Shown in pieces: positions 9,910-64,000 of a stretch of 64,000 nucleotides of DNA (positions are counted from its first letter, which is position 1; each line of letters opens with the position of its first letter). The notes beneath the pieces are model-generated. The model had not been told where the DNA came from. It was given only the letters and a program-made list of their open reading frames with translations, and searched no databases. Both the position numbers and the translations under genes were made by a program. This DNA comes from Macrocystis pyrifera (Eukaryota; Sar; Phaeophyceae; Laminariales; Laminariaceae), in contig JASSKH010000035.1 of assembly GCA_031763025.1 (NCBI GenBank), positions 4,770,389 to 4,834,388 on the forward strand, given 5' to 3'.

Positions 9910-10116
9910 TTGAAATATATGGAAATGTTTATCTCAGTGAAAAACATCTCAGTATCACAGCACCGCAGGCTGCGGTCTTTTCCGTTGCTACGTATGCTGA
10001 GCACCCTACAAACTACCATGACACGCCCACAGGGGCCATCGGTGCGTCTGAACATGGGTCGATAAACATCAAGGGCAACGCGTCGTTTGTCAACAATTTT
10101 TCCATGGGTAACGGAG
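9910..10116 (+). CDS. Beta-helix exon (5' boundary uncertain)
   Basis: The frame is open without a stop from 9,855 to 10,116 and ends GGT AAC GGA G|gtgag like the other cassettes. The first part contains VEIYGNVYL and LSITAPQAAVFSV; the second is a typical rung, INIKGNASFVNN. A phase-1 start is possible after TATTGTAG (exon from 9,910) or after CCCACAG (exon from 10,033, giving exactly 28 codons). The longer reading is kept because the whole stretch looks beta-helix-like, but the upstream acceptor is weak. Confidence 0.6.
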
Positions 10117-13100
10117 GTGAGACTATCCCGCAAATTGGTCGTTGCAATACTGCTGTGTTGGTCGCGCTTGACGAGGTGGATGCATGTGCCTCAGGCTTTG
10201 CGCTACTGCTCTGTTGGTCGAATAAACGAGCGAGCATCGTCAATGACAACAACGACTCGGGTACCAACGGTGAAAATATCACGACAGCTTGTCCAGAACC
10301 GTTCGTCCGTGGCATGCTTTTAGTTTTCGGTGCTGACAACTCCAACAGTTTCTGGATGGTCCCTGGTAAAGCGAGATTTGACGGATTTGTTCCACCTTCT
10401 CCTGGGTAGCAAACCATGAGTGAACGTCGCTGTTGTTCTGTTCAGGATTGACTTGGTGTAATAACGCAATAGAATCGTGACGTCCAGAACCATGTCTTAT
10501 TGTCAATGTTTCGCACTCAAAGCTATGTTTTAACGTGTCATATTTCGCGTACGTAGCATGCACACCATATGCGTTATACGTCAGACCACTATCCGCTTGC
10601 TCTGTTTTTTAGTGCATTCGTCCGGGATGTTGGTCACGTTTCGCAGCACCGTCTGGGTAGTTGTTAGGCTGCATTCGATGGGGATCATAACAAGCACTTT
10701 ACCCATTGTAAATATTCAGGTGCCATTACGGCGAATACAGATTCCGTTGCCGTCATCGATGGTCTCGTCAGTTTTGAAGGCAACTCGGCGGCAAGCATAG
10801 GAGGTGAGAAACATGTTGAGGAATTAAATGACATCATATTGCCGTTGCCTGGAGCATCTAAGCTTTTTTTAAATACAAACGTTCGATGATATTCAAGAGG
10901 ATCGTATAGCATCTCAATAGCCCAGTTCGATTCTCCCTAATACCGGCTTGAGTGTTAGACGAATATCCTTGGCGTGATGAAAATGTACAACTCGAGACAC
11001 CAGTTACTCGGTGTTGCCGGTTTGCCAAGCCCAACTAACCCTTGTCAGCGATGCCGGTTCTCATATCGGTGTACTGAATAGGGAACCAAACCATTGTATC
11101 ACCTTTCCGACAGGAAGTTCCCTACTAGATAATTGTCGTCAGGTGTGAAGCCTCAACAATAGGTTATAATGACACGTGTCCGAGCCATGTCACGGACAGA
11201 TGGCTTACGGTTTTGTTGGAAAAATGACTGATCAGCCTCGCTCTTTAACGCCGATAGTACCCATTTCAACTTCACCGGCCTATCAGGTGTGAATGTGTGT
11301 TTTGCTATGGCGACACGGAACGTGCCAAGTACCAGATTTTGTTTCACGATTGAGCACCAAGTGCGTGAAGGTTTTACTATTGTAAGGGCTAAGCGTTTTC
11401 GTGGACATGTGCTAGATCAATGACGTTGCTCCTCTGATTGCGGAAACCTTTGCATCAAAGATGGTTTATGAGTGACTGATAAATATTTTCACGCTTGGAA
11501 TAGCCTCTGCCGTGCGTCGTCATGTATTTTCAGGCTAGATACTATGTCATCCTTGGTGTAAGATTCGCGTGGACGGTCATATCTCGGGAGCATGATATTC
11601 TCCTTTTTAGTTGAGATAGTACGAGTAGCTTGATGCAATGCGCCCGGTAAGTGTAGAAACCTCTACAATTCAAAGCATCGGAAGCTGCATTCTTGGAACA
11701 TAGCGACCACGTCTATTGCACATTGAATCTCTCACAGTATGGAGCTCTGTCAGAATGTGCATATTTCATACCGTAACGGTGTGCATAGCGTGCTGTCGTC
11801 GTGCTCTGTCATGGACACTAAATACCCGCACGACTGGTGTTGCTACCGGCAGGTGCTGTAAGTTCGCTCGAAGGATCAACCGTGCAACTCATTGGTGACA
11901 TCTCTTTCTTCGACAACCATGCGGGAACATCTGGAGGTACGAGCTGTCTTAGAATATGTTTGTATTGGGTTCCAGACCCTAGCCCCGAACATACAAAGTA
12001 TATGGAGTATATGTTTCCGATTTCATAGTGTCTCATGCCATGTTGGATAACTGCGCGTACATCCGAAAACGCAATTGGGCTCTAGTCCCACGAGGGACCA
12101 CGCTGTTCAGTTCATTGTCTACGTAAGTACGTTATATGGACAAGAGGTTGAGAGCGCTGACCTAGAAAACATATGAGTGTGTTGGGGTGCCATATGTTTA
12201 ACGCAGAGACGTATCCAAGTAATTGGTCTGGCTGGCTACAGTAGGCAATGTCGTGTGTTAAGCTCCACGGGGTACCTTTTTTCCTGAATATGTTGATGAG
12301 TCAACTCGACACCAACGGTTCGCTGTACTCTGAATCCGGAAGGTGGGTGCAAGGTATATTTCGTTTGAGATACTATAAGAAGTATTTGTTGCACCACATA
12401 GGTTGGAGAGTCCTTGGAATTGTATGAGAAGCCGCGCCATATCGTCAACACGTGCATGAAGGAATGTTGGGCAACACAGATACTGGACTACCTGAGGTAA
12501 CATGCTCTTCCAAATCCCGAATGCAGAATACATTAAATTTGGAATTTTCAAACGAATCGCCGTCAAAACCTGGGTTGGATGGTTTGAAGACACCTTACAT
12601 ATCCTCCACCCGTTCACGACTATGATGAGCATCAAAACATAAAAGCGATGGATCATTCACGGTAGAATGTCATGACCAAACCGAACGTTGTACATGACCA
12701 AGCAATACCAATTGAAAGACGAAATAATCTGCATGAATGAAGGTTTAATATAGATGACAGAATACGTGAGGTCCTCGTTGTGGATCATACGAACGAAAAC
12801 GCGTAAATAGATGAGAGTACACAACAAGCTGTTTGCTAGAAAATCTGTTTTTTTTTCCCGATTCGCAACGCTGACAAGTGTATTATTCATATAGCACCTT
12901 ACCGATCTTCGCCAAAACGAAGGCACGCCAGTCGTCGATATACATGCATTGAAAAGCTAAGCTATCGATCTCACAAGCACACTCTTCGAAGGAGTCGAAA
13001 AGTATATCAATATGTTCACCGCTCCAGAGGTTTCAGATGTAGTCTACAATACAACATGATTCGTTCGACCGGGGGTATCTAGCTTGGTGCAAATGCTGTA

Positions 13101-22100: not shown

Positions 22101-25100
22101 AGATTGCGACTTATCTATGAATCTTGATGGTTAACCAAGTCAATCTTACGAGGCTGCCAGTGTCGCTAACCACTGACTCGGGAAGAATGTTTATATATGT
22201 TATTGCGGCCGCAATATAGCTGAGCGAGTTGTCTATGGAATGAACGTATTTTTACAAATCAATTGGAGCTGTCTATCGAAGTAAATTGTTCCCGGCAACA
22301 ATGTCAAGTGTCAAGTGGGATTAAACGGGCGGCAGTGTCATATGGGGGTCTATGGAATTATACTAAGGGCGGGAGCCTTGTTGAAAGGTCCATTGCCTTG
22401 GGTGTAGTATTTACCAGATACGTTACTTATCTGCAGGTGCGATGCAAGGAAGGGAAGGATCGATTTTACTCTACGGCGTCACCAATGTCAGCAGCAACTC
22501 GGCCGAGGACAAAGGAGGTGAGCAAGATTTGGTTGCGGTTTGTTGTTTTCTTCTACCTTGTTGCGCTGTGCACGTACGACTTCGATAGTGACATAAGACA
22601 GTATTATGCCTGGACAGATGTGCAATCACACTGCTGTATACCTGGTATAGTGCAGAACTAGTGACTTGCATCGGCGTGCTGTTCGCCAGTGGGCTAGGCT
22701 TTCATTCTGCTGTAGAGGTCGTACAAAGATATCCCAAACTTGCACTTGTTCAAAGTGTGGCCGCCCTGAGGGTGGCGGCCTCATGTGTAGATAAATATTC
22801 GTTAGGTGCCGAATAGCGATGCAGTTTCACGCTGTACCAGGTATGTATGCCCATTACTTCTGGTTCTCGTTCTAGTATCGATACCGCCTCTGCTGCTGCG
22901 AGTGCTGCTACTACTACCCCATACTGCTTCTGTGGTGTTCTACGTTGTTCGGACTGGTGTCGCTTGCTGCTGCCGACGTGTGCTATTCCCCAACTGTTCC
23001 ACAGAATATACATTCATAAAAATGAGTGTATGGTCGTGGTACTTTAACCCTAGCACTGCTCGAGAGTGGTAGCTGTCTTCACAACGACTATCAAAGGCTA
23101 TAATACAATATACTCCTACTCGAGAGTGGTAGCTGTCTTCACAACGCCTATCAAAGGCAGTAATACAATCTACGCCCGCCGTTATGTGTGCCCCTGACGC
23201 GTGAGGCGCATGATACCATGTGTACAGTTATCTGAACCAATATCCACTTCGAAATGCCCACAGTATATCCCCATACGGGTGACAAAATCAATCAACCGAT
23301 GAACATGACTTGGGAGCAAATGCCGATGATTCTCGTACTGCTGAAGTACATGCTAACACGGTTTTACAGCGTTCTTTGTAGAATCGAGCCCGGCATTACA
23401 TGACCGTGACGAGAGGCCGGTAGTGCTAGGAGAGGATCACGCAAACAAATATTCAGTGACAGCCCTAGCGTGTACCATACACAGCGGCGGCGAGGGTACA
23501 GCCTAAAACAATGACGCGGGAGGGCGTGTTAAGTACACACATAAGCAGCATGTTTCAAAAGTTGCATGGTCGTCGTCGTGTTGGAACAGCAGGCCCATCA
23601 TTCCTAGACAATATTGGGAGAGCCGTAACGGGGGATGGGGGACGGTTAGAACCGCAAACCCTTGCCAGTGATGATATTGTCTGCTGAATCTATTGAGAGA
23701 CACGGAGGCACCAGCAAAACCTTGAACACCGAAGTAGTTGAACTACAGGCAGTATGTGCAGTACAAAACTCTGCAAATGCTGCGAGCGGTCGTATTGACT
23801 TTTGACGTAGTATTGCTCTCATTGCCGCCAGTGCTTCCCCTGCAAATGTGCCTGAGAGCACTCCAGAGATAGTTCATGTATGATTTCCGCGCAAACTTGT
23901 GGGTGCAATTGTCTAGCCCTATAGGCAGTATCGAACCCTGGAAAACAATGTCGAAAATCGTAGTACCCCCTGAATTTGCGCACGAAACTGATGTTTGTTT
24001 CACTGGGTGCTGGAGCATCTGTGCCACGATAAAAGAGGTCTACAGCACTACCTGGCCGTAGAATATATCACGGCCCGTTTTTCGCTCCCACGGCTTACCT
24101 ACACTCACACACGATCTCATTTGCCAACCCGCAGGTGCGGTTGTGATCATCTCCGGGTCTTTCCTTGACATCGATGGCGTAACATATTTCAACGACAATT
24201 CAGCAGGCAGTTTAGGAGGTGAGAATTCCGGTGTTTTGTAGGAAACATTCGAAGTGTGTTAATAGTTTTCGTAGTTTGGGCTGCCGTCTTACTACGGGCA
24301 ATCTCCCCGGCACACATCAGAGGATGCCGTCGAGGAAATTGTCCGCGATCCGATGAATACTCCAAGCCGTAGAGTGCGCTAGCCAACCACTAGCTGTACA
24401 TGCCAGGATCTGTTTAAATGCATTCACATACGGACAGCGATTCTGACGTTTGTCAAAGCTCCCTGGTGAATGAAAATCTCCCCGTCGCTCTTCGGCGATT
24501 TCCGACAGTTTTTCATGTTCTCAATTAATGTTATTTCTGTTTTATGGGACCTCCACGTTTGTACTGCTGGCGACTGACGTAGTGTAGTATTAGTCATGCC
24601 GTCTCTCCATTGAAACGTCCAGTTGATTTGTGTCTAGCAGTTGTTGCAGACTCCGGGTAGAAACCCGAATAATTAAGCCATGACCAGTCTGATGAAAAGT
24701 GGTTCCTTATCCCTCCAAATAGAGAGTTCAACCAGATTCGCTGTGATACTGCAGTTCGGTTCTATTGAAGGATGTTTTGCTTCATCTTTTATTACTTTTA
24801 AAGTAGGGTGAGTCCCTGGGATGCACACGCACTTAACAATGGAGAGTGTGCGTTACTCTGCTCGCTTGCCCAACTGCTCTGACTGTACTCTTCCAGTTAT
24901 TGTCTTCCTAAACCAACGAGGTCAACGGAATGCGTGCCGTTGCCCCATCAAGAGCCACCAATATCCTCTCGCTATTGCGAACATGTTTCTCTCTTGTACG
25001 TTACTGCCTCACAAATATCACATCGCGAATTCAAACGTTCTATGATCGTAGATTATCTCTAGCTCCGTAGTTGATTGGTCTACTGCTGTGCTGATCTTCT

Positions 25101-31100: not shown

Positions 31101-34100
31101 TTCGTTATGCCGGTTCAAGCACTAACGAATCGCGTCAAGAATGTTGCACGCAGAAGCCACCCGAATGTCAAATGTTTGATATCATGCTGACCGTCGTGAA
31201 GAGTTGAAACAGACTTCATAGCCAAATCCTCGTGTTAGGGGCCCAGGGCTTGAGCCGGCGGCAACATTGTGTCCGGACCAACCACATACCCTCAAAACGG
31301 TCAAACGTTGGCAGGCGTTCCCGCAGCAAGAAACTATTGTATCTTCATGTTTGGTCCTGAACGAAATGACTCTGTGTAGTCCAAGGCATATCATCTCCTT
31401 GAAAAGGGGTTGCCCAAATATTCGAATAATTGACTGCGTATGATCAATGTTACTCGACCATTACCGCGAAAAGTCGATTCGACCCTAAAACCAAGTATTC
31501 TCAAGAAAACGGTGATTTTTTATTTTTTCCACGGAAGCTTAGACCTTCACGTGTTTTTTTTTCAGTTACACTCTGCTTTGCACACATCTTCCGTGCCATT
31601 ATGCGCAGGGGTGTATGGAGGGGGTTCAAGTTTTTTTGTTTCTTTTTCGTTAGGTATCCCGGGTCCCAGGAAGACCAATGCCCATAATCACCCGAAGACC
31701 CCACATAACTGGGGGAAACAAAAACAAACGAAAACATGCCCTCCCCCCATGCACCTCCCGGAATAAAGGAACGGAGGGTGTGTGCGAAGGTTCAGGGTCT
31801 AAGCAACACAAAACATCGTGAACATTGATGTCGGTTGTTTCTCTTGACGCAATTCTTCGACCAACTCATAGCAACATCCCTGGGCGCCATTTTCGAGTCG
31901 GTCGCTACAGTAGCACGTTGTCGGCCGCGTAAAAACTACTGATGCACCGAACCCAGCAAACAATCACCGAGCAGGATTTCCCGGAGCGATAGCTGAGGAA
32001 ACGTTAACTTTGGAACTACCCAGCTGTCATTTGCCGCGACTAATCAATACCGTCAAATGTTTACAATGTACCCGGACTGCTCACTTTCGGTTGCAGCTAA
32101 ACTTTAACCGCGCAACCCCTCGTTATCGCTAAAACGTTCACCGCGACACTCTTGATTTACCGTTCAAAACAATCGCCTTGGTTAAGCATCTTCGACAGTT
32201 CCGGAATGCGTATATAATTTTCCCTGTTGTCACTGCCTGGGACTTCATGGGCAAGCGAGAACGGCAGGAGGCTGCTACGATCTGTTTCAAGCATATCCGC
32301 CTAATGACTTCAAAGTTCGATGTCCTTAGGATTAGGGTAAATCTGCAAAAGACGACGTGGACAAAAAGACCTCTATGTAGTCAAGTGCAAGAAATAGTCG
32401 TTGGCTCCTAGTATCAAGTTTCCGTAAACAAATCCAATTTTGACGTCAAGTAGTACTTGATATTGGTCCTATATGTAGTCAGTGTTTCGAGGTGTTTACG
32501 GAAACTGTTTTACAGGCGTGCCTTGGGGTATCTTGAACCAGTTCATTTGACAAAAACTTATAAAAATAAACAGTGCCTACGGAAACGCCGGGCCGGTATT
32601 GACGTTTTGAACGCCAGCGGTTAATGTCGCGTTAGCCATGGACCTTCGACCAAGCAACTTGATATGCCACCCTCTATTGCTGATCATTACAGTCAGTATG
32701 ACACTAAATATGTGACTTGGAGTATTTATAGCATGCAACATTTAGGAATTATACAGTTTTAGAGTTTTGCCGTAATTGGAAATTGTGTCCCTAGGGAACG
32801 ATCGCCTCACCTGCAGTTTGCGTGCGAACAATGTTGTTCGTTATTCCTCACGGCTTCGGAGTACGGACTACTGTGGTGGACATCTGTAAACAGGCGTAGA
32901 ATAGATCATGAACTCCGGCTTGGTCGATCTTAGTTGTGGATAGCATTTTCAACACCACCCGTTAGTTACAGATGCAATGTAACGGTTGACATTTGCGCTC
33001 GTCTCGTCTGTCGGGTGTGTGGCTGTACTGCATATTTTTTTTCCAGGCCGTCCTCGTTCTTGTCTCGGCAAGATGTTATAACATGTAACTATTGCTCGAA
33101 ATCGCGTCTAATCGATGTGATCCTAAATCAGTCTATAATGTCATTTGCTAAAGTGTAGGTGCAATTCTGGCCCAAGGCTCAGAGATTAGCATCACTGGCA
33201 ACGTCATATTTGGCTACAACAGAGCCCGTCGCGACGGAGGTGAGAAACAGGTTAAAACACGGGTGTTACCACGACTAAAGGTGATACGTACACAATAGTT
33301 TCATGATTATACAGTGTAGGCTATATACTGTATACGCGGTGAGATCTCTGGATAAGGCACGATGTGCGAAAGCTGAAGTTTGCTAGACATTCCGCAGTAG
33401 GAAAGGAAGCACGAGCAGTCAGGGTTACCCAATGAGTTGCATGAGTTTCAGGTTCGGAAAAACATGGCCTTCCGGGTCTAGGCGTGAAGAGTGTCAGTGG
33501 TGTCCAAAAGGTCTGGGTGAGGAGAGCAGTAAGAGTACAAGGCAAATTTCGACACGAGTCGGCGAGGGAAGAAAGGGATAATGGTTTATCGATTTTGAAC
33601 TGAAAGGCTCGACGAGGAGAACCTGCTATGTGAACACATATCTGATTAGTCACTACGAGGGAAAGGACGAAGAAGGCTCGAGATAAAAAGGGAGAATAAA
33701 ACTATCTGCTAAACCAAGACAAGTGTGAAGCGCATATCGTTTGACCTCTACCGCGAGCAAAACGGACACGGAGAGTCGACACCAGTGCTGTGGAGGCCAA
33801 CCTCAAGACTTTTAACCCCCGTCCCTCGAAACGATTTTGTGGCGTTCACCGATTATCAAGCGCTCGCCTACCATATGACGGGTTTGTTTTGCAGTATACC
33901 TACTAATGTGTACTTCATACACTGCCCAGTTTGTACTGCAGGCACGCAGTAGCTGGCCTACTCACTCCACCAACTAGAGATGTAGCACAGTACCTAACTC
34001 CAACAGATATCAACATATGTTGATACATCTAGACGATTCTCCGTCTTCATCCGATTGCCTGCGTCGGCACTTCGGTACGCTTGCGCCTCGAACATGCCTC

Positions 34101-37100: not shown

Positions 37101-40100
37101 GCTGAGTACTGTGATCATACCAATACCTACAACGGATGCTCTCGGGGTCACTTTCATGTTTCGCGCTTGCTTCTGGAAGTAGTAGACGAATGTCATAAAA
37201 CAGCGATCATATCTCAAATGCGGCTAATATTTCAAATACAAGTCCGCACTTGCAGAAACAAACACAAAACTGGCAGATGTCCATTCATGCGATTCCTTCG
37301 GACGAGTACGCAGTACACCCGCACATACCACGACCGCAGATGGTCATTCACGCGGTTCTATTTTACTTTTTGGTGCTCGATAAATAGTTTGCAGTACGGG
37401 AAGTATCAACGATACTAAACTTAATCCCAGTACATCATGTAAATAATGTCCACAGGTACATTATGCGAGTATGCACATACCATTGATATTTCGCATTAAC
37501 AACAAAAGACCATCCAGTTGTTTCATAACCCTTTCTTGTGGTTTGCGTTACTACGTTTGTTTCGGTATATACCTAGGCAATGAGACGTGAATCGCACAGT
37601 TGAGAGTGTCTCCACAATCAGTGTTGGTCGATTGTTTGAAGAATTGATCATTCGAAACGATATCAATGTTTTCTAAGATCGATACTATTGACCCAGCACG
37701 AGCGTCCACCCGCTGCCGGTTCCTTGATCGCTCCAACCATTATCTCATCCCATATTATGCCCACCGCTTGGAGTCGGGTAATGTCGACGAAGCTGCAAGC
37801 AGTGTCGAGACGATACAATGCACAAGCCCACTATGCGACGAGCGAAACCAAAATGGGTTTCCGAATTGAAGGAAGCACATTGAACCAAACGATGGAGGGG
37901 AAGCACACTACTGGGTTCGTTTCTTAGAGCTCGATGATTTTGTGTCTCAGGGCACGATCCATGATATACCCGTATGTAGGAGTATATTCTAGAGTTTTGA
38001 AGATCGATCGCTGTTGCACGTTTGATCCTTCTTTGAGAAAATCTAACTCGCTGGAATTACATGGAGTGTATTTATCTGTTGTTCGTTTTGAGAGACGTGG
38101 AACATTGATTGTGTATTTTACGAAAAGTTGTGGACAAAACACAGATCGCGATCGAGGTGTTTTTGTTGTACGTTCGGGTTACGTTGTTGGGTTAGGGAGA
38201 GACAGATTGTGGTTGTTTTCGCTTTTTGTGTGGCACCCGATCGCATTAAAAGATGCTGGCACGCGTTTCGTTCGAGCTCAAAAATATTGCTTGTGCGGAA
38301 AGCTGCCCGATAATATAACTAATCCTAAGTTTTGCTATAGCCAGTTCGATTCTAAATTTTTTTATAGTATAATCCCACAAAGAGCCCATTCAACCCTTGA
38401 CACCACGTCCGAGCATTATATTCGATTCTCATGTGCGTTTATAAATATTAGACGTTTGAATACACATTCATGTCATACTGAACTCTCGTGCTGCATACCG
38501 GGAGCATGGGTGCCGTCGGGCACCCATGCGGAAATCTTGTATTTACTTGTATGCGATGAGTACAATATGTTATATTAAGTTTGCGTTTGATATATTCGTA
38601 TATTTAACGTATGGTATATGCACCCTGATACGGGAAAGCTAGAAAGAAACAAGTAAAAACCTAGGGTCCTCAGTTGAGGTTATCATCTGAGACCGCATGC
38701 GTTTTATTTTCTTGCTTTGATTTTGTTTTGTTGTGTTTCGATTTGTTCAGCAGACAGACCTGTGAACTGGCCCTGGCTGTTGCACGCTTAGGTCACTCCG
38801 CCTCTTTGTCTCATCTTCTTTGTTGCGATGACGGCCAATCTGGTCGGACGTACCACAATTTCTCTTTCCGCGACTACTAGAATTAACGAAGTAATGAAGC
38901 ATACGTGTGGCGACTGAGCAAAACGTTCAACTCAGGCCAAGAAGGGGACTAGTAACGGACATGGGTAGTTCGTCAGTTGACGAACCCCACCAGTCAGGAA
39001 TGGGTCCCCTCAGTAGTGCTACGGTATCATCACAAGTGTCACACAACTACCTGGCTGGTGCATCGTACCTATTAAACACTTAGGTGCCTTTGTCTCTGTG
39101 ACCCCTGTATCCGTGCAGCTGCGGCCGGTCCCTTGCCGTTTGCGTGCAAGATACTTACATTGGATGGTCCTCCGCCGTGCCCTTTCCACCTCCACCCTAG
39201 AGGTTTCGTCTTGATAATATGTTTTGACAGTTGTCAGAGGTGTTTGGCTAGTTGATAATATATGTTGGTGACGAAGCGTATGGTGCTGGCGATGTTTTGG
39301 CGGAAGCTCACGGGACAAGATCGTGAAACGCTCGCGTACACTCGTGTAACGTTGGTAGGAGCTCCGTCGATGGCATTGTAGAAAATAGACGGAACCATGT
39401 TCGCTTTACACGTGATACTCAACCTCAGTGTTGTTCTCGGCTTCACCGGCTCACCAAGCAGCCGTCGGAATTACCGACCATGCCGTCGGGTGGATGACGT
39501 TTTAAGTGTACAGCAATAACCACCGTGCTTGAACGTTGTCGTATGGCCTGTGACACAAGGTTCGTGACGATCTGAGTCGGATCACGTATACCGCCTGACC
39601 TGTCGTGAAGTGCGAGTCCTTCTATCGTGACGCCCTATCAACCGCGTGATCTCCCCTGTGGTGTAGGTGCAATCAAGACGTTCGACACTAGGCTGACCAT
39701 TGGAAATGCTACGCAGGGGCCGGAGCTTTCATCGATCAGTTCGCTAACAGGAGGTACGGAACGACAAAAACATGCCAGTGTTTCAAATACCGCCAGAGAT
39801 CCCCTATCTGGAGAAAGCTGGAGTGCGTTTATTAGGAAGTGCGGTCAGACATAACCTTGTTTCGCTGTTGGTGTACCAAATGCAAGGACAGGGCGTATAC
39901 GTCTGCATGCGAAGTTTTCACGTTTATTGATGTAAACTTGACGAGTTGACCGGGCGGTGGTAAGTTTTAGCGTGAAGAGCTCCCACCTAACTTGAGTGCA
40001 TTAGCGAATTGCCCCCAAAATCAATGCTCGGGTTTTGAAGGCGGATTGTGGTGACTGCGACATAAATGTGGTGTAGTTGTCTTGTTTCTTTCGCTGGTTA

Positions 40101-43100
40101 CTGATTACGTTGAGAATCTTCCATCTGTACTGGGAAGGCTGGAGAGTCCTCCCAAGAACCTTGTGTTTTGGAGTGGTATGACGTTGTTAGCGGGAAATCG
40201 CGCAAGCATACCATTGATACCATAAAGTGGCAGTCTGGCGTCAAACCCTATAATTGACAAGACTTGTCTTCGCCTTCATAATCAACCCGGCGCTCTTGTC
40301 CGGTCAATAAATATTCAGGTTCCACTATTGCCGCCCAGACATTAGACATTGGTACCATCGGGGCAATATCCTTCGTCGAAAATACAGCCTTAGCGCTCGG
40401 AGGGGCGTTATCACTGGCGGACTTTGTCGAGGTCAATATAAGCGACGTAACCTTCGAGATGAATGAGGCCGGATCCGGAGGAGCTCTCTCTCTGACATCC
40501 ACGACATGGACAACAGCGGATTTCAAGCGCTGCCGATTTGAGCGAAATCAAGGCACACGTGGGGGCGCCCTCTATTTTTACGGCGAAGGGTTGGGGCTCC
40601 TTGACGATTCTTCCTTTAGGCTCAACGTTGCTGGTGAGACTTGATCGAGAGAACTTTCGACTTTGGTTTTCAGCCGACTGAATGAGTTGTTAGTTCCCCC
40701 GATTTAACGACACTAGCTTGTTGATCAATTTCCACGCGAGAGGTTTTTTGTGTTACGACCATGTTCAGATTCCGTGCCAACCACTCAACTTGGTTTTGTA
40801 GATTTTGTGAGGTCAACAATTCAGACCTTAACCACACCTCGATGCGAAACCATACAATAGAGGTATTGCAACATACACGTGAAAACAAGATAAAGGTACA
40901 TTTCCGCAAAACAAAGTGAATTTCCTTTCCATCATGATTTCTATGTGTTTGCGGACGAGGTAAACCAAATTCTGCAGGCGACGCCTCCGAAATGGAAGAG
41001 GGAAGTGAAGATGTGCGGCCATGCGGCAAACAAAAAAAAGAGAGAAAACACGAACAGCGTGCAAGTAGCAAGGGCAGCACAGCAACGGTGTCGGCGGCAG
41101 AGTTGACCGCAAGCAGCAAGCGGCAGCTAGCTAGCGTTAGCCGCAGCACATGTTTGGACAACGAAAATAAGCAGCATCAGCACCAGCACCAGCAAGAGCA
41201 TCAACTCTGTTTTGCTGCTGCTGCTCCTCTGCTGCTGCTGAGTTTTGCTGCCGCGCTCGGCCTACGCACGATACAGTTCCCGCGCTCTCCGCTCCATTGC
41301 GGCCGGTGTTGCTGCTGCTGCTTCTGATTCTGCTGCCGCCGCTACTGCTGCTGCTACCGCAGTATGGTGTAATTGAAATGATCCACGTGCTGTCATGCTG
41401 TCGCGCTCTACAAGCAAGGGGGTACGATCGCGAGTACGGTACGAGTATGAGACTGTTCGGGACGACGCATCTTCCACGATACGAGTACCAACCGGGTGAA
41501 AGCGTGTACAGTAGCAGCGGGCCACCGGCGGAGCACTAGCACAATCTAACGCCACCCATCCGTGTTATGCTCCAGCCGCACCTCTCGAGGACGCGTTCTA
41601 CGATAGACGTAGTACATTTTCGCTGAAATGTTTTCTGAAAGACAGTGCTCCAAAACCCAAAATCGTCGGAATGCCAATCATAATTCGACAAATGACTTTT
41701 TCGAATACTTGTGCCATGGGATTGTTCATTGGTATGCCACTTGGGTTTTGCTGAGATCAGTTGACAGATGAGGTATCTCAAGTGAGGATCTCAGAAATAA
41801 AATGGTGCCTTCCTTATGTAGCATGCGTCCGAGCTTCTGCGCTCCCAGCGACTGTCGTGTTGAGCAAGCAGCATGGTGCGTGGAGGCATGGAAGGTGCTG
41901 GGTGTTTGAAGCTTGTGAGATGCACTCTGCGTCGGAATAATGCTCTGCGCGTGTAGGCCAATGAAACAGAGCGACGAAAGTTAACTCAACTTTCGATTGA
42001 ATCCTACCTTCCCTATAGTATGTTTTTCCTCGATTTTACAGACATTTATGTGAATCAGTAAGGGTTACGGAGAACGTTTGGAGAAGTAACCAAACTATAA
42101 TTCCAACTCTCTTATCCTAACAACATAATTCTCTCTAACGTGCATGATGCATACACACTGAAGCTAAAAAGGCACAGAAAAAAGTCGCCTAGCACGTTTT
42201 TCTCAAACCCTAACAACTACATATCGAAGTCAGCCACTGCTCTAATTAGATTTCCCACACGCGTGAATCAGACGGGAATCCCCACACGAAACGCCGATAT
42301 ATGTTGTTTGCGGGGTGACCAACCATTTTCCAGTGGAGAAAGGAGGAGCTCTGTTCAACTCTGGGCCGTTGCGAATAAAAAATACTGTCTTCGCGGAGAA
42401 CACGGCTGAAGATGGCGGCCTGGCAATACAGAATGTCGAGTCTGCGGTGGAACTGCGGAACGTGACCTTCGATGAAAACAAACTGAGCTGCCCCTCTCAA
42501 ATGTATGGCGATATCGATGATGTAAGTACGGTGATAACACCACCAACATTTATTTGGACCAGTTTGGAATACGTTAGGCCGGAAAAATGGAGCCTAGCCG
42601 TTTCTTTGGTAAAATCGAGGTTGGCAGACTATGTATTGTCGTCAACTGGCAATTTTGATTTCGTGTATCTGTTATTAGTAGGAAGTTTTGCTGCATAAAT
42701 AAATTGTGATATCCCCTAAACGAAAACTTATGAACTTACGACAGTACGTCCATGCGGGGAAACGAGTGGTTTCAGTCACTCTTGAGGTTCCCGCAGCATG
42801 TCATTGTGTACGTGACTGTTAGCAAGTAGGCGCTCTCTTCCAACGGGTTTGTTCCCCTATGTGTAGTTTCGAAACGATAGATACGGACCGAACCCACCTC
42901 CACTTTTCATGGAAATATGTTCTTGCCGCATTCATTTCACTGGACTATTTCTCGTTTTCCCGTTTGCTCTCGGCAGGCTTCTCCGAATAACTGCCGGTTT
43001 GAACTGGTATGTGCACAGTGCCTGGATGGGTGTGGAAGTGACCTAAGCGATGTGACAATTGATAGAAACACTTTACCTGTCTGCAACCCGATTCCCGTGG

Positions 43101-45297
43101 GGGTCTGGCCTTTGTCGCCAGCCACAACTCTCCAAACGTTCGACATGAAGGAGGGGTATTTTCGCATTTCTACAGAAAGCCCAGTTGTGCTTCAATGCTT
43201 TCAAAGGGATGCTTGCGCTGGGGGTATTGAGCAAAGCGGCTACTGCGCCATCGGCTACACAGGTCCATGTGCGTTTTTTCAGACGAGCCTCTTAGCGCAG
43301 CCACTGCCTCGATTATATTGAACAAGATGGCAACGCTAATGCCCTCCTTGAGCATCAAATCGTTGGTACCATGGCGTTTTTTCACCCGTTGTTTCTGGAG
43401 CGAATAGTTGGCCATGACCAGAGTTCCAGCGGAGACATATCGCAACCGTTAGATACTTCACTACTTCTCTCATATGCAACCTTCTCGTTCAACACTGACT
43501 ATGGTGTTCGCTCATAATTTCTCATATGGCAGACTGCGCCGTGTGCATGGAGGATTACGTGCCGGGGCCAAGTAACCGCTGCTATAAGTGCTCTGAAGAG
43601 AACGAGGGGTTAACGGTGGGAATTCCAACAATAGTGCTGTTCCTTACGCTGCTGGCTACCGTGTTGGGGGCTTCATACCTGCTCGAAGTAGTGAGAAGCG
43701 GACCCGATGTTGAGAACAACCAACGCCGACAATGGTGGCGGGGGAATGTCCGGCGATTACGTGCCTGCTTCGCGAAGGCAATCCCACTGTCGACCATAAA
43801 GATCGTTGTGACGGTGTTACAGATTATTATTCAGGTGCGTTCTGTCAGAGATGGCTCTAACCCCATTTCGTAATGATATGCACGAAACGATTTCACTGAA
43901 TATTTGGAAGATAGGGGAGAAAAAACGTTTTATAGAAATTATGCGATCAATGAAGAACGGGATATTTCTCAAAAATTCTTGTACAGTACCGCTGCATGTT
44001 TGCAGTAGGTCTTGATAGTTCGTGAGGAATCAAATTTTCGCAAAGCTGCAAATCTTTCGAAAAAGGGATAGGGTACATACCTGAGGTCCCTACTTCAGAT
44101 TGCTAAACTTCTAAGGCGAACACGCCAAATCGTCCACTGTTTCCTTGGTCGAACGCAACAATAGCAGGCTAGCGTAGGGTCATCCGTTACTCAACTCATG
44201 GTCCAGCGAAGTGATGCCCCAGACGCCTGTTGTAAAATAGACCGGTTGCATCAATCATCACATGCCACGGCTCGGGTGTATTTCATATTCCGGGGATCGG
44301 GATCTTGTCGTTCTCTGACTAACCTATCAGCATCTTGCCCGTATCTCCAAATGTTCTCTGTCTGCAGTTCACTGAGATTGCCGGGGCGGTGTACCCCGAC
44401 GAATATGAGAGGTTCCTCTCAGCGATGGCGATTGTTAACGTTGACGTGGGACTATTCCTGTCAGGTTCCTGCTTCATCAAAATAGACTTCTACGACAAAC
44501 TTGTGATTTCCACGTTGGTTCCGATTGTCGTAGTTCTGGCATGCGCTGGCACGTTCATTGTAGCCAATATGAGGAACCGGAGCTCACCCTCGGCTGGGCC
44601 TATTGTAAGACACAAGCACCTGTCGGTCATTTTGTTTTTGGTGTTTTTCGTATATTCATCTGTCTCTTTTACAGTATTCCAGACGTTTGTGTGCGATTCG
44701 CTCGATGACGGGAACGCCTATCTTCGAGCAGACTACAGTATTACCTGCTTCACGGAAAGGCACGCAGCCTACCAACTATACGCCAGTTTCATGGTGTTTG
44801 TCTACCCAGTCGGCATTCCAGCGTTCTTTACGTTTTTGTTAGTGCGCCATCGTCGGGAACTGCGAAAGCCTGAAAGGGAAGAAATGCCGCCGCTCAAAAC
44901 GTACCGGTTTCTGTGGGGCGCATACAAACCGTCGAGTTACTACTACGAGGTCGTGGAGTGCGGTCGCCGAGTCGTTCTCACCGCAGTGGCGGTATTCGTA
45001 TTTCCGCGCAGTACTGAACAGATCGCCATCGTACTGCTCCTCGTGGTAGTGTTCGTGTTCATTTCCGAATCTGTTGATCCGTTTCAATCCAACGGCGACA
45101 AGTGGTTGTATCGTTGGGGGAACGCAATCATTGTAACCAGTATGTACGCGGCTTTTCTTTTCAAAGTTGACCTTGCGAAAGAGGGAACTCAAGGTTCGTT
45201 GGCGATCACGATGCTGCTCATCGCGGCAAACGTGTTCATGATGGTTTCTGTAGCTGTGCATGTCTTCGCCTTGATGAGAGGTCTTTGTGCATCGTAG
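9910..45297 (+). CDS. Large modular beta-helix / Cys-rich / polytopic membrane protein gene (5' end not found)
   Basis: Multi-exon gene with about 15 or more exons and some 950 readable codons from 10,033. Exons in order: 9,910 (or internal 10,033)-10,116; 10,720-10,803; 11,853-11,936; 22,437-22,517; possibly 23,708-23,788; 24,135-24,218; 25,498-25,578; 30,297-30,377; 33,159-33,239; 39,667-39,753; 40,319-40,633; 42,334-42,521; 42,977-43,268; 43,533-43,834; 44,368-45,297. All cassette exons are multiples of 3 and phase 1-1, and every later junction matches in phase. The N-terminal part is a string of rungs of the type G-[AVG]-I-x(n)-I-x-G-x-V-x-F-x-x-N-x-A-x-x-G-G, as in right-handed beta-helix (polymorphic outer membrane protein-like) repeats. 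It is followed by a Cys-rich module with GYTGPYCAVC and a C-terminus with about eight to nine hydrophobic helices. Role inferred: cell-surface protein with an extracellular beta-helix, perhaps adhesion or sensing; no enzyme motif seen. The start codon and signal peptide were not found, and further cassettes may hide in the 10.5-kb and 6.4-kb gaps. Two separate genes or a pseudogene are not excluded. Confidence 0.75.
10117..10719 (+). other. Intron
   Basis: It begins GTGAGACT and ends AATATTCAG. Short overlapping frames inside are antisense or read-through shadows. No mobile element is recognised. Confidence 0.65.
10720..10803 (+). CDS. Beta-helix cassette exon, 28 codons
   Basis: Bounded by AATATTCAG| and GGAG|gtgaga. 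In phase 1 it reads G-AITANTDSVAVIDG, then LVSFEGNSAASIGG. This is the clean consensus: an ordinary AG acceptor, the strand-turn-strand rung with a Phe and Asn near the end, and terminal GG split across the next splice site. Confidence 0.75.
10804..11852 (+). other. Intron, 1.05 kb
   Basis: It begins GTGAGAAA and ends GCTACCGGCAG. No other feature is recognised. Confidence 0.6.
11853..11936 (+). CDS. Beta-helix cassette exon, 28 codons
   Basis: Acceptor CTACCGGCAG, donor GGAG|gtacga. Phase 1 reading gives G-AVSSLEGSTVQLIG then DISFFDNHAGTSGG. The donor is GTACG rather than GTGAG, a variant also seen at 39,754. Confidence 0.75.
11937..16170 (+). other. Start of a 10.5-kb intron or gap; no exon recognised
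   Basis: I searched this stretch for AG|GT...GGAG|gt spans of 78-90 bases and found none that stays open. It contains a short inverted telomere motif (CCTAACCCTAATCCTAACCC) near 14,963 and a short GAT/ATG microsatellite near 15,264. Frames such as 12,258-12,656 and 13,535-13,924 (both minus) have no recognisable content. Confidence 0.5.
17298..17765 (-). pseudogene. Reverse transcriptase domain fragment of the LINE
   Basis: A 155-codon frame holds the first conserved RT blocks: WKYATIVGLHKKDG, then CGNYGGILLM (normally NYRGISLL in this family), then ILPEEQCGFKSQRSTIDKTF. The next block, which should carry the first catalytic Asp, is garbled (LVLRRPRQGIRFSRR) and the frame then shifts. The fragment has no function of its own; it marks the LINE. 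Confidence 0.88.
18281..18998 (-). pseudogene. Endonuclease-domain fragments of the LINE
   Basis: Three overlapping minus frames together cover the C-terminal half of an EEP-type endonuclease and the linker to the RT. The D-x-N-A-R motif is kept as MDANARTG, and the catalytic-His region is kept as PESDHKPGQ. The N-terminal half with the catalytic Glu is missing, consistent with 5' truncation near 19.0 kb. Confidence 0.82.
19037..19285. repeat. Two-copy ~133-bp tandem repeat
   Basis: Units starting GAGCACGGATCTTTAG (19,037) and GAGCTCGGATATTTAGG (19,170) share the block TTGAGAAATTTCCTGGTT and the following AAACACGG. Identity is about 75-80% by eye. They lie directly beside the truncated 5' end of the LINE. 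Confidence 0.8.
19283..19625. repeat. Two-copy ~170-bp tandem repeat with telomere-like core
   Basis: Copies begin near 19,283 (CGCCGCGTTTATTCCAG) and 19,453 (CTGCCGCGTTTATGGC). Each has a GC-rich head, a G-rich telomere-like core (GGGTTTGGGGTTGGGG in the first, AGGGTTAGGGTTAGGGTAGG in the second) and a tail with GATCCCA(A/G)CAGGAAG. The cores look like degenerate and fresher versions of the same TTAGGG seed. Confidence 0.75.
19644..19797. mobile_element. MITE family A, copy 1 (17-bp perfect terminal inverted repeats)
   Basis: Left end GCGTTCTACGATAGAGG (19,644-19,660) is the exact reverse complement of the right end CCTCTATCGTAGAACGC (19,781-19,797). The 154-bp element has no coding capacity. 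Related copies occur at 41.59 and 45.77 kb with the same internal words (GTAG(C/T)ACATTT, AATCGTCGGAATG, TCAAGTGA). A clear target-site duplication was not seen. Confidence 0.85.
19798..22436 (+). other. Continuation of the long intron; no exon recognised
   Basis: It holds a possible tRNA-like/SINE remnant near 20,065-20,170 (separate entry). Frames at 20,947-21,316 overlap on both strands, and the frame at 21,518-21,976 (minus) has no recognisable content. The intron ends ACTTATCTGCAG at 22,436. Confidence 0.5.
20065..20170 (+). other. Possible tRNA-derived remnant (A-box and B-box-like words)
   Basis: TAGTTCATCGGTTGGAACGC (20,071-20,090) resembles a tRNA D-arm/A box, and GGTTCAAATCT (20,115-20,125) a B box, about 44 bases apart as in a tRNA. 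The T-stem does not pair properly, the acceptor arms do not match and no anticodon arm folds. If real, it is a decayed tRNA or SINE head rather than a working tRNA. The T-rich stretch after 20,140 could be a tail. Confidence 0.25.
22437..22517 (+). CDS. Beta-helix cassette exon, 27 codons
   Basis: Acceptor TATCTGCAG, donor GGAG|gtgagc. In phase 1 it reads G-AMQGREGSILLYG then VTNVSSNSAEDKGG. Length, phase and boundary words match the other cassettes exactly. It lies 10.5 kb after the previous recognised cassette. Confidence 0.75.
22518..23707 (+). other. Intron, 1.2 kb
   Basis: It contains a 60-bp tandem duplication at 23,056-23,175. No other feature is recognised. Confidence 0.55.
23056..23175. 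repeat. Tandem duplication, ~60-bp unit, two copies
   Basis: CTCGAGAGTGGTAGCTGTCT and the ~40 bases after it, ending near AATACAAT(A/C)TAC, occur twice head to tail with four or five changes. Confidence 0.9.
23708..23788 (+). CDS. Possible decayed beta-helix cassette exon, 27 codons
   Basis: Between ACACGGAG| and GCG|gtcgta lies an 81-base open stretch in the right phase. It reads G-TSKTLNTEVVELQ then AVCAVQNSANAASG, the rung pattern including the NSA near the end. Both splice sites are poor: there is no pyrimidine tract and the donor is GTCGTA. The terminal GG has become SG. It may be a dying cassette that is skipped, which would keep the frame because the exon is phase 1-1. Confidence 0.45.
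24135..24218 (+). CDS. Beta-helix cassette exon, 28 codons
   Basis: Acceptor CCAACCCGCAG, donor GGAG|gtgaga. Phase 1 reading: G-AVVIISGSFLDIDG then VTYFNDNSAGSLGG. A textbook member of the series. Confidence 0.78.
24219..25497 (+). other. Intron, 1.28 kb
   Basis: It begins GTGAGAATT and ends TCTCTAATTAACAG. Nothing else is recognised inside. Confidence 0.6.
25498..25578 (+). CDS. Beta-helix cassette exon, 27 codons
   Basis: Acceptor TTAACAG after a CT-rich tract, donor GGAG|gtgaga. Phase 1 reading: G-VISAFDSKIQINGN then TSAANNSARSEGG. It keeps the I-x-I-x-G-N turn and the N-N-S-A end typical of the series. Confidence 0.77.
25901..26100. repeat. Dispersed element R1, copy 1 (~195 bp)
   Basis: From GGTGGCCATCTGAGTACC to CTCGCAACCCTTGAG it matches the block at 29,458-29,650 at roughly 80% by eye, in the same orientation. 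On the minus strand both copies stay open and share peptide words such as DNVTGY, FTT and KVVV, so it could be part of a longer coding repeat or transposon. Confidence 0.8.
26682..27265. repeat. GAGCTC satellite, block 1
   Basis: Tandem units of 42-46 bp built on CATGTGCAGATGAGCTACCG and TATAGCTCAAGC. A larger ~300-bp pattern is visible: the block ending GCTCCTATAGCTCAGCCTGGG occurs near 26,850 and again near 27,148. The words GAGCTA and TAGCTC are mutually inverted, so the array is rich in short palindromes. Confidence 0.92.
27266..28364. other. No supported gene between satellite blocks
   Basis: Short overlapping frames on both strands, the longest about 80 codons at 27,510-27,752. None is recognisable. 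Confidence 0.5.
28365..28636 (-). CDS. Possible exon, Pro/Thr/Ser-rich (unknown)
   Basis: A minus-strand frame (whole open frame 28,320-28,703) with a plausible acceptor CACCCACCAG| at 28,637 and donor AAG|gtgcgtg at 28,364. The peptide is low-complexity and hydrophilic: SLIDNNSYGGCQLS, then PTQNTPPTPQTNTP, then a Ser/Gly-rich and acidic tail. Composition is unlike the neighbouring chance frames. It has no domain and I found no partner exon, so this is weak. It may equally be chance. Confidence 0.25.
28776..29220. repeat. GAGCTC satellite, block 2
   Basis: Same monomer as the block at 26.68-27.27 kb (CATGTGCAGATGAGCT, ATAGCTCAAG, GAGCTAGCTCATGTAGCTC). Copies are somewhat more diverged, especially after 29,040. 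An open plus frame at 28,858-29,115 is the satellite read in frame, not a gene. Confidence 0.9.
29458..29650. repeat. Dispersed element R1, copy 2
   Basis: Matches 25,901-26,100 in the same orientation. It contains a perfect hairpin, GTTGTGGT-GAA-ACCACAAC (29,490-29,508), imperfect in the first copy. Both copies flank the satellite blocks. Confidence 0.8.
29651..30296 (+). other. 3' part of the intron; no other feature
   Basis: Unique sequence. It ends with CCCAACCCTGACCCTAACCC, then CTCGCGTTTTCCCACGTGCAG, which is the acceptor of the next cassette. Confidence 0.6.
30297..30377 (+). CDS. Beta-helix cassette exon, 27 codons
   Basis: Acceptor CCCACGTGCAG, donor GGAG|gtgagg. Phase 1 reading: G-GAIYALGTEISIEG then CTKIVENEGYDGG. 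It keeps the GGAIY start seen in many beta-helix surface proteins and the I-x-I-x-G turn. A telomere-like CCCTAACCC tract forms part of its pyrimidine tract. Confidence 0.8.
30378..33158 (+). other. Intron, 2.8 kb
   Basis: Two short telomere-like motifs occur, near 30,681 (GGGTTAGGGTTAGGGC) and 31,047 (TTAGGGTTAGGG). Otherwise only short frames with no recognisable content. It ends CTAAAGTGTAG. Confidence 0.55.
33159..33239 (+). CDS. Beta-helix cassette exon, 27 codons
   Basis: Acceptor AAAGTGTAG, donor GGAG|gtgaga. Phase 1 reading: G-AILAQGSEISITG then NVIFGYNRARRDGG. All consensus positions are present. Confidence 0.8.
36268..36353. mobile_element. Possible MITE family B remnant
   Basis: TACAGGGGGCCATATTAAGT and the following AGGACT resemble the left end of the element at 55,105, and CGGTCCCTATGATCCC resembles a worn right end. 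The terminal repeats barely pair, so this is a weak call based mainly on similarity to the better copy. Confidence 0.35.
38504..38529. repeat. Perfect inverted repeat, 11-bp stem, 4-base loop
   Basis: GCATGGGTGCC, loop GTCG, GGCACCCATGC. A strong hairpin in DNA or RNA. No T run follows it and its context is intronic, so no function is assigned. Confidence 0.8.
39667..39753 (+). CDS. Beta-helix cassette exon, 29 codons
   Basis: Acceptor GTGGTGTAG, donor GGAG|gtacgg. Phase 1 reading: G-AIKTFDTRLTIGN then ATQGPELSSISSLTGG. The rung is more divergent at its end (no F-x-x-N-x-A) but length, phase and boundaries fit. Confidence 0.68.
39754..40318 (+). other. Intron, 565 bp
   Basis: It begins GTACGGAA and ends AATATTCAG, the same acceptor word as for the 10,720 exon. 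Nothing else is recognised. Confidence 0.65.
40319..40633 (+). CDS. Long beta-helix exon, 105 codons, three to four rungs
   Basis: Acceptor AATATTCAG, donor GCTG|gtgaga, phase 1-1. Rungs are fused in one exon: LDIGTIGAISFVENTALALG, then GALSLADFVEVNISDVTFEM, then NEAGSGGALSLTSTTWTTAD, then CRFERNQGTRGGALYFYGEG. The repeated G-G-A-L and F-x-x-N spacing of about 24-28 residues is the clearest beta-helix signature in the gene and fixes its class. Confidence 0.85.
41171..41360. repeat. CAG/CTG-rich simple sequence
   Basis: The left part is rich in CAGCACCAGCACCAGC, and the right part in GCTGCTGCTGCT and CTGCTGCTGCTACC. The two halves are partly complementary and could fold back. It encodes poly-Gln/His or poly-Leu/Ala in chance frames. 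Confidence 0.85.
41589..41830. mobile_element. MITE family A, copy 2
   Basis: Left end GGACGCGTTCTACGATAGAC, right end TTATGTAGCATGCGTCC (imperfect inverted repeat). Internal words shared with copy 1 are ACATTT(T/C)CGCT, AAATCGTCGGAATG and TCAAGTGA. About 240 bp, longer than copy 1, with extra sequence in the middle. Confidence 0.75.
42334..42521 (+). CDS. Beta-helix exon, last rungs
   Basis: Acceptor CATTTTCCAG, donor GATGAT|gtaagt. It enters in phase 1 (joining to a Val codon) and leaves in phase 0. It reads EKGGALFNSGPLRIKNTVFA, ENTAEDGGLAIQ, VELRNVTFDENKLSC, two further rungs with the GGAL and F-x-x-N marks, then a short linker with a Cys. Confidence 0.85.
42977..43268 (+). CDS. Cys-rich linker exon
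   Basis: Acceptor TCTCGGCAG, donor CCAT|gtgcgt; phase 0 in, phase 1 out. It has a first cluster CRFELVCAQCLDGCGSD, a middle segment with MKEGYFRIS, and then CFQRDACAGGIEQSGYC, IGYTGP. Joined to the next exon the motif completes as GYTGPYCAVC, an EGF-/ephrin-receptor-like Cys-rich signature that I associate with this family just before the membrane region. The phase match that restores the motif is good evidence for the splice. Confidence 0.85.
43533..43834 (+). CDS. Exon: end of Cys-rich module and first membrane segment
   Basis: Acceptor CATATGGCAG, donor ATTCAG|gtgcgt; phase 1 in, phase 0 out. It starts YCAVCMEDYVPGPSNRCYKC, then TVGIPTIVLFLTLLATVLGA (a clear transmembrane helix), then a basic, polar stretch with RRQWWRGNVRRL (probably cytosolic), then STIKIVVTVLQIII, the start of a second hydrophobic segment. 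Confidence 0.86.
44368..45297 (+). CDS. Terminal exon: polytopic membrane domain
   Basis: Acceptor TCTGTCTGCAG, phase 0, ending at TAG 45,295-45,297; 309 codons. About seven hydrophobic helices follow one another: LVPIVVVLACAGTFIVA, HLSVILFLVFFVYSSVSF, LYASFMVFVYPVGIPAFF, CGRRVVLTAVAVFVF, IAIVLLLVVVFVFI, AIIVTSMYAAFLF, MLLIAANVFMMVSVAV. The loop YYYEVVECGRRVV and the motif ESVDPFQS are of the sort conserved in stramenopile proteins with this architecture. The tail is very short. It resembles the transmembrane portion of TRP/polycystin-like proteins only loosely; channel activity is not shown. Confidence 0.88.
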   Translation, partial: FTEIAGAVYPDEYERFLSAMAIVNVDVGLFLSGSCFIKIDFYDKLVISTLVPIVVVLACAGTFIVANMRNRSSPSAGPIVRHKHLSVILFLVFFVYSSVSFTVFQTFVCDSLDDGNAYLRADYSITCFTERHAAYQLYASFMVFVYPVGIPAFFTFLLVRHRRELRKPEREEMPPLKTYRFLWGAYKPSSYYYEVVECGRRVVLTAVAVFVFPRSTEQIAIVLLLVVVFVFISESVDPFQSNGDKWLYRWGNAIIVTSMYAAFLFKVDLAKEGTQGSLAITMLLIAANVFMMVSVAVHVFALMRGLCAS

Positions 45298-46857: not shown

Positions 46858-46920
46858 TAGGGTTAGGGTTAGGGTTAGGGGTTAGGGTTAGGGGTTAGGG
46901 TTAGGTGTTAGGGTTAGGGT

Positions 46921-46955
<35 letters not shown>

Positions 46956-47029
46956 GGTTAGGGTTAGGGTTAGGGTTAGGGTTAGGGTTAGGGTTAGGGT
47001 TAGGGTTAGGGTTAGGGTTAGGGTTAGGG
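46858..47029 (+). repeat. Interstitial telomeric tract, (TTAGGG)n, ~172 bp
   Basis: The tract is imperfect on the left, where units alternate with 7-base variants (TTAGGGG, GTTAGGT, TTTAGGG), and perfect on the right for about 90 bp. Orientation is the same as the terminal telomere 16 kb away. The 30-bp minisatellite follows shortly after. Confidence 0.97.
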
Positions 47030-47155
47030 CTCTAAGCCTATTTGCAAATAGAACTGAAGGTCGAATATTTAAGACTACGGTCTATTTGAATAGGCTTATG
47101 GGCACTTTAAATAGGTGTTCGCCCGGAAATATACGTTTTCGAGGGCATTTCACAC

Positions 47156-63244: not shown

Positions 63245-64000
63245 AGGGTTAGGGTTAGGGTTAGGGTTAGGGTTAGGGTTAGGGTTAGGGTTAGGGTTAG
63301 GGTTAGGGTTAGGGTTAGGGTTAGGGTTAGGGTTAGGGTTAGGGTTAGGGTTAGGGTTAGGGTTAGGGTTAGGGTTAGGGTTAGGGTTAGGGTTAGGGTT
63401 AGGGTTAGGGTTAGGGTTAGGGTTAGGGTTAGGGTTAGGGTTAGGGTTAGGGTTAGGGTTAGGGTTAGGGTTAGGGTTAGGGTTAGGGTTAGGGTTAGGG
63501 TTAGGGTTAGGGTTAGGGTTAGGGTTAGGGTTAGGGTTAGGGTTAGGGTTAGGGTTAGGGTTAGGGTTAGGGTTAGGGTTAGGGTTAGGGTTAGGGTTAG
63601 GGTTAGGGTTAGGGTTAGGGTTAGGGTTAGGGTTAGGGTTAGGGTTAGGGTTAGGGTTAGGGTTAGGGTTAGGGTTAGGGTTAGGGTTAGGGTTAGGGTT
63701 AGGGTTAGGGTTAGGGTTAGGGTTAGGGTTAGGGTTAGGGTTAGGGTTAGGGTTAGGGTTAGGGTTAGGGTTAGGGTTAGGGTTAGGGTTAGGGTTAGGG
63801 TTAGGGTTAGGGTTAGGGTTAGGGTTAGGGTTAGGGTTAGGGTTAGGGTTAGGGTTAGGGTTAGGGTTAGGGTTAGGGTTAGGGTTAGGGTTAGGGTTAG
63901 GGTTAGGGTTAGGGTTAGGGTTAGGGTTAGGGTTAGGGTTAGGGTTAGGGTTAGGGTTAGGGTTAGGGTTAGGGTTAGGGTTAGGGTTAGGGTTAGGGTT
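63245..64000 (+). repeat. Terminal telomere, (TTAGGG)n, ~126 copies
   Basis: About 756 bases of the perfect hexamer run to the edge of the window, G-rich strand 5'->3' to the right. It is the natural end of the chromosome or very near it. The array shows no variant units, unlike the interstitial tract at 46.86 kb. Confidence 0.99.

Follow-up and report, generated by a model that had tools for sequence, protein, structure and literature searches.

A probable giant membrane-protein gene with one PMP repeat per frame-neutral exon near a telomere of Macrocystis pyrifera

A 64.7-kb gene of 17 exons most probably has 14 of them in the window. It would encode a membrane protein composed of a signal peptide, an N-cap, a rod built of PF02415 repeats, a stalk rich in Cys and a polytopic membrane domain, in which each distal rung of the rod is encoded by one exon of phase 1-1. 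By the window we mean the whole stretch of 64,000 nucleotides that was analysed, namely the final 64 kb of C216, a contig of 4834388 bases (the genome comprises 537 Mb in 223 contigs). The spliced model runs from -19426 (window numbering extended leftward) to 45297, so that the window cuts the gene and leaves about 19 kb of it on the left. Its 17 exons join in one frame of 1140 codons, with a final stop only, to give a product of 1140 aa. All 16 introns have GT-AG borders and a G at donor position +5, and the exon phases are consistent at every junction. The boundaries of exons A to E were set from the sequence and from conservation against paralogs.

Left of the window lie two further cassettes and exon 1, whose start resembles a signal peptide, by eye and by hydropathy, both in the window gene and in its paralog on contig C191. 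We therefore reject a gene confined to 35 kb, as the preliminary description had it; the start that it placed at 9910 is likewise unsupported, the first cassette in the window beginning at 10033. One extra upstream cassette, near -4075, is frameshifted in the window copy, intact in a near copy on contig C197, and was omitted from the 17-exon model. The sequence supports a single gene that combines frame-neutral cassettes with the architecture of a surface protein.

Between 10033 and 39753 the window holds nine single-rung exons (c1 to c9) of 81–87 bp, or 27–29 codons; at least eight and probably ten had been anticipated, and two more lie upstream. All nine begin and end in phase 1, and the splice site divides a Gly codon, just as the preliminary description stated; the split codon GGA G/GT (the slash marks the splice site) supplies AG/GT. 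A rule based on splice sites and Gly, applied to 9.0–46.5 kb, picked out all nine cassettes and one extra place, 46165–46272, which is not a PMP rung. The cassette profile finds eight of the nine, c9 being a diverged rung. The claim that the cassettes are frame-neutral is supported by the presence of phase 1-1 exons in one open frame.

We then combined the splice rule (AG, phase 1, phase 1, GT) with the profile, iterated on the cassettes found, at a threshold of 10 bits. The scan gave 11 hits among 2001 candidate exons in 94 kb of C216 and 17 among 1878 in 82 kb containing the C191 paralog. It gave none in any of four controls with 1855–2056 candidates (two opposite strands and two reversed sequences), and the idea that the cassettes are chance open reading frames is rejected on this ground. 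The 5'-most hit in each gene is the end of exon 1, and its removal leaves 10 hits for C216 and 16 for C191; c9, which the scan missed yet which is conserved in the C191 paralog, and its partner bring the counts to 11 and 17.

Table 1. Exons of the gene and telomere-repeat arrays in the window
Feature	Position	Strand	Description
Cassette c1	10033..10116	+	One PMP rung, phase 1-1; splice sites conserved in C197 and C128
Cassette c2	10720..10803	+	Phase 1-1; paired with C191 cassette 3267 by position only
Cassette c3	11853..11936	+	Phase 1-1; C191 partner 4452, 72.7% DNA identity over 121 bp
Cassette c4	22437..22517	+	Phase 1-1; paired with C191 cassette 10936 by position only
Cassette c5	24135..24218	+	Phase 1-1; C191 partner 11718
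Cassette c6	25498..25578	+	Phase 1-1; C191 partner 16232
Cassette c7	30297..30377	+	Phase 1-1; C191 partner 41933
Cassette c8	33159..33239	+	Phase 1-1; C191 partner 50483, 81.5% DNA identity over 92 bp
Cassette c9	39667..39753	+	Diverged rung, phase 1-1; C191 partner exon 56154
Exon A	40319..40633	+	About four PMP rungs, phase 1-1
Exon B	42334..42521	+	About two rungs, phase 1-0
Exon C	42977..43268	+	Cys-rich extracellular part, phase 0-1
Exon D	43533..43834	+	End of Cys-rich part and first hydrophobic segments, phase 1-0
Exon E	44368..45297	+	Polytopic membrane domain and stop codon
Interstitial telomere-repeat array (TAGGGT)	46858..47029	+	Adjoins the distal edge, 46854, of the C197-shared block 4699-46854
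Terminal telomere array	63244..64000	+	TTAGGG-type, 757 bases; contig ends with the window

The 1140-aa product matches the PMP repeat (Pfam PF02415) in eight stretches, with an E value of 1.1e-14 and 53.4 bits against a cut-off of 20.6; up to E 10, Pfam returned beyond this only a sub-threshold DUF6338. In Chlamydia, published work predicts that this repeat, with its motifs FxxN and GGA(I,V,L), folds as a rung of a beta-helix (PMC10715098). From the PF02415 match and these published predictions, a beta-helix fold is predicted for the cassette rungs. An AlphaFold2 model of exon A, built from only two sequences, is too poor to bear on this fold (pLDDT 38.3). Exons D and E together contain about eight separate hydrophobic segments, and hydropathy and a weak model (pLDDT 63.9) indicate that exon E encodes a hydrophobic helical domain. 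For this exon there was no Pfam match above cut-off, no match in a PDB sequence search with its alignment, and no usable solved-structure match in a fold search, where the match list barely covers residues outside 30–151. The Cys-rich and polytopic membrane domain described earlier for the C-terminus, and exons C, D and E that encode it, proved to be real. The succession of a signal-peptide-like start, a repeat ectodomain, a Cys-rich part and a polytopic membrane domain supports the architecture of a surface protein.

Compared from exon 1 to exon E, the window gene has 11 cassettes and its C191 paralog 17. Downstream of c3, six cassettes pair in order between the two genes, five by similarity and one (c4, which has no clear C191 partner by similarity) by position only. 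Altogether seven of the nine window cassettes (c1, c3 and c5 to c9) have a C191 partner that is their best match or their best match in C191, and these pairs are collinear. Upstream of c3 there are four open cassettes and one frameshifted one in the window gene, and in C191 ten open cassettes by the scan, along with further broken or doubtful ones; one of the ten, at -8545, has an odd 3' end. C191 also contains an array in which a 190-bp unit is repeated in tandem 4.0 times (81% matches). Its units include cassettes together with intron, which shows tandem duplication of exon plus intron on the distal side of the ectodomain. The two genes thus appear to differ mainly by distal gains or losses, and the comparison supports a change in ectodomain length through gain or loss of cassettes between paralogs. 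The preliminary description had proposed an ectodomain whose length evolves by exon shuffling. Its gain-and-loss component stands, with the difference in cassette number and the tandem units in its favour, and its swapping component does not: because paired cassettes are collinear, strict shuffling is unsupported, although single old events are possible. The one out-of-order best match, that of c2 (10720) to C191 16232, is weak (identity 0.48 against 0.44 for others).

The window gene might instead be an ordinary, constitutively spliced gene in which the rung-per-exon structure is a fossil of the origin of the repeats and no present engine of change. This reading, which is compatible with our preferred one as far as the past is concerned, is plausible, and we place it somewhat below even. 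It draws on the matching order of the six membrane-proximal cassettes in the two paralogs, on the near copies in C197 and C128, where all nine window cassettes are kept open, and on the introns of the window gene: within 200 bp around the cassettes, the flanks have no mutual similarity, so the gene's own duplications are old. Against a static gene, the number of distal cassettes differs strongly between the window gene and C191, and the array of four 190-bp units in C191 looks like a later tandem gain.

This genome also holds a second way of encoding such a protein. A compact relative on contig C202 (C202:9522127, region 9522100-9527760, L053) has a signal-peptide-like start followed by one open frame of 764 codons, which matches PF02415 in 11 stretches (E value 1.7e-44, 145.3 bits); after this frame come more exons and a homologue of exon E. 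Within the frame are 18 Gly-Gly motifs, mostly 27–28 residues apart and with three double gaps, from which we count about 20 rungs. One kind of protein therefore has two encodings. The cassettes of the window gene could in principle have arisen by parallel insertion of introns into a single-exon repeat array of this sort, at AGGT sites formed by Gly-Gly codons. In line with such an origin, the rungs of the compact relative share a single open frame, GGAGGN accounts for 12 of its 18 Gly-Gly motifs (three of the 12 being GGAGGT), and the split Gly codon of the cassettes gives AG/GT. We nevertheless consider it unlikely, since the window cassettes share no intron sequence, exon and intron have been duplicated together in C191, and the compact gene may have lost introns instead; recent insertion in particular is unsupported, there being no shared flanks between window cassettes.

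Conservation between the window gene and C191 coincides with exons in 11 of 14 blastn rows, the remaining three being only 21–56 bp long. The dN/dS ratio against C191 is 0.21 for exon E, 0.22 for exon C, 0.56 for exon A and 0.56 for seven paired cassettes, one of which is paired by position (exons B and D were left out). These ratios indicate that the protein is constrained over the long term, and the cassettes least. On the branch to the C128 copy, defined against the other two copies, synonymous and nonsynonymous changes number 9 and 26 in the cassettes (ratio 0.93) and 38 and 37 in exons A to E (ratio 0.31; Fisher P = 0.022), so the cassettes evolve faster than the rest, with ratios that are rough because C128 itself has a 1-base frameshift in exon E. 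The 747 cassette bases contain no indels; at intron rates one would expect 3.8 in the comparison with C128 (P = 0.022) and 1.9 in that with C197 (P = 0.15). The 2027 bases of exons A to E contain one against each copy, with 10.4 (C128) and 5.1 (C197) expected.

Over 14 exons, the window copy and C197 have accumulated 9 synonymous changes and 31 nonsynonymous ones since their split, about what would be expected without constraint, and the window copy may be under relaxed selection. In exon D of the C197 copy, 5 bases are inserted within a run of G. The frameshifts in C197, in C128 and in the cassette near -4075 may mean that some copies are decaying, or they may be indel errors of the assembly; 11 of the 131 exon E matches in the genome carry stops. 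That the window gene is itself a decaying subtelomeric copy, once a functional giant gene, copied between chromosome ends and now drifting with its cassettes as relics, would agree with the near-neutral changes since the C197 split, these frameshifts and these stops, but is unlikely given that each of the 17 exons in the model is open and keeps its splice sites intact, that the cassettes are free of indels, that the C197 insertion is in a run of G, where the assembly could be wrong, and that the long-term dN/dS is below 1.

The telomere array at the end of the contig begins 17.9 kb past the stop codon of the gene, which agrees with the distance of about 18 kb given beforehand. Telomere repeats were found at the ends of C216 and C197, and both C128 and C204 have three units at their start; none occurs in the first 800 bases of C191 or the first 400 of C198, and contig ends are therefore not all demonstrated chromosome ends. 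Besides the window gene, there are 11 closest relatives of exon E (at least 60% identity, one of them given in two pieces). The ten on contigs of known length all lie less than 400 kb from a contig end; the eleventh is on C222. The block that the window has in common with the near copies is about 97% identical in C197 and about 91–93% in C128 (BLAST, introns included). Its distal edge in the comparison with C197 meets the interstitial telomere-repeat array, as if the shared block had once ended a chromosome or had been joined at this array. The copies probably spread through exchange between chromosome ends. At three contig ends we observed divergent gene pairs (C128:9555-222071, C197:30455-270862 and C191:77434-239531), with one gene pointing toward the contig end, one away from it and 44–104 kb between the first exons.

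Across the genome, exon E has 131 scored matches (of 307 candidates), which amount to 125 loci on 59 contigs after merging of pieces, and exon 1 has 118 matches among 150 scored. An exon 1 match has a same-strand exon E match no more than 150 kb downstream in 62 cases, corresponding to 61 loci because one exon 1 was given in two pieces. The two exons are 3.6–10.4 kb apart in 14 cases, 13 of which have a first open frame of at least 390 codons, and 11.8–143 kb apart in 48, where the first frames are short in nearly all and where the longest distances may join different genes. Nine exon E matches fall within about 583 kb at C126:2907423-3489679, so the family also clusters away from chromosome ends. 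The compact class was read in one gene, and its other members were judged by their long first open frame; the giant class was read fully in two genes, the window gene and C191, whose cassettes were followed exon by exon, and for C197 and C128 this reading covered the window part. We propose tentatively, and as close to an even call, that the family is a third brown-algal exon-cassette recognition system, and one that faces the outside of the cell. It would consist of about 125 loci for a PMP-repeat membrane protein, in a compact form (about 4–10 kb, rungs in one exon) and a giant form (tens of kb, one rung per exon); the latter, spread among chromosome ends, would change the length of its distal ectodomain by exon duplication and possibly by splicing.

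In the mechanism that we favour for the window gene, the protein would be secreted, anchored by its C-terminal membrane domain, and would display the rod of PMP rungs. Because the distal rungs are symmetric exons with a split Gly, duplication, loss or skipping of an exon would alter the rod by one rung alone, leaving the frame, the register of the rungs and the membrane domain unaltered. Between two paralogs, the distal part has changed and the membrane-proximal rungs and membrane domain have been retained. Skipping of cassettes in the mRNA is possible. The product could act at the surface as receptor or adhesin, with a reach and a binding face that shift over evolution, and duplication between chromosome ends would presumably help such change. 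By analogy with ROCO and NB-TPR genes (PMC11378527), our guess is that it serves in the recognition of microbes or of kin.

Genes with one repeat per exon have been described in brown algae. LRR-ROCO genes are reported to carry each repeat on an exon of its own and to undergo both shuffling and alternative splicing (Teng et al. 2024, PMC11378527), and the same paper cites repeat-per-exon structure for NB-TPR genes (Zambounis et al. 2012 and Teng et al. 2023, as cited there). The likeness to the window gene comprises the brown-algal setting, small symmetric one-repeat exons, exon gain among genes, large families and a proposed role in recognition. The one-repeat symmetric exons are found nine times in the window, twice upstream and 17 times in C191, and the window gene and C191 also differ in cassette number, as ROCO and NB-TPR paralogs do. 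In these accounts, however, the repeats are LRRs (72-bp exons, phase 2) or TPRs attached to ROCO GTPase or NB proteins, and splice variants and positively selected sites are published for the LRRs of LRR-ROCO genes. The window gene differs from both in its PMP repeats, its exons of 81–87 bp in phase 1, its signal-peptide-like start and its polytopic membrane protein. Neither a ROC-COR or NB-ARC domain nor LRR or TPR repeats appear among the Pfam matches of the 1140-aa product up to E 10.

The Pmp proteins of Chlamydia resemble the predicted product in their FxxN and GGA(I,V,L) motifs, predicted beta-helix rungs, variable repeat number and nature as surface proteins (PMC10715098). They are bacterial autotransporters, unlike the window gene: its C-terminus appears hydrophobic and helical from hydropathy and the model, not an outer-membrane beta-barrel, and no autotransporter family is among its Pfam matches up to E 10. 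Other holders of PF02415 named in the same text include Trichomonas, Phycisphaerae and Methanobrevibacter, and Pfam lists more than 100 non-chlamydial species; brown algae are unnamed in its section 9 (PMC10715098). A kelp unigene with the same kind of annotation appears, in a passage that gives no gene structure, solely as an RT-qPCR validation target (PMC10573767), which suggests that some gene with such annotation is transcribed in kelp, though it may belong to another family than the window gene. Literature on PMP or beta-helix genes in brown algae or stramenopiles, in a partial search that left subscription journals largely uncovered, yielded one passing mention and no such architecture. 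Within the literature so covered, one rung per exon on a PMP-repeat membrane protein appears to be new, whereas one repeat per exon is known for ROCO and NB-TPR genes.

In Dscam-type arrays, the exons are alternatives to each other, whereas in the window gene each frame-neutral exon adds one rung. The resemblance between the two lies in the many similar exons within one surface-protein gene. Dscam-type arrays are also mentioned in PMC11378527.

A large family of membrane proteins whose ectodomains lengthen one rung at a time, by way of frame-neutral exons, would be an obvious candidate for a role in recognition. Multicellularity evolved independently in brown algae, and to our knowledge little is settled about their recognition of microbes and of one another. 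The presence of two architectures in one genome also offers a built-in comparison, in which one may ask whether exon-per-repeat genes change faster.

Between the gene and the telomere, positions 47115–52260 are occupied by subtelomeric tandem repeats (ACCAAGTCATTT type) with periods of 30 and 145 bp. They contain two open frames, 427 and 315 codons long, which are likely to be repeat DNA with a 30-bp period divisible by three; by eye, the end of contig C125 resembles the ACCAAGTCATTT-type repeat. Further tandem repeats there have units of 204 bp (58430–58972) and 334 bp (53064–54250). On the minus strand, the intron between c3 and c4 contains an open frame at 17298–17780, which we take to resemble a fragment of a non-LTR reverse transcriptase and which had no Pfam match at E 0.01. 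Seven other open frames of the window were compared with Pfam, and one of them, a repeat array, gave matches. Expansions of the EsV-1-7 family (PF19114) are typical of brown algae, and by this mark the host would be a brown alga, perhaps a kelp: its genome has at least 150 matches over the cut-off, and none of 14 control genomes has any.
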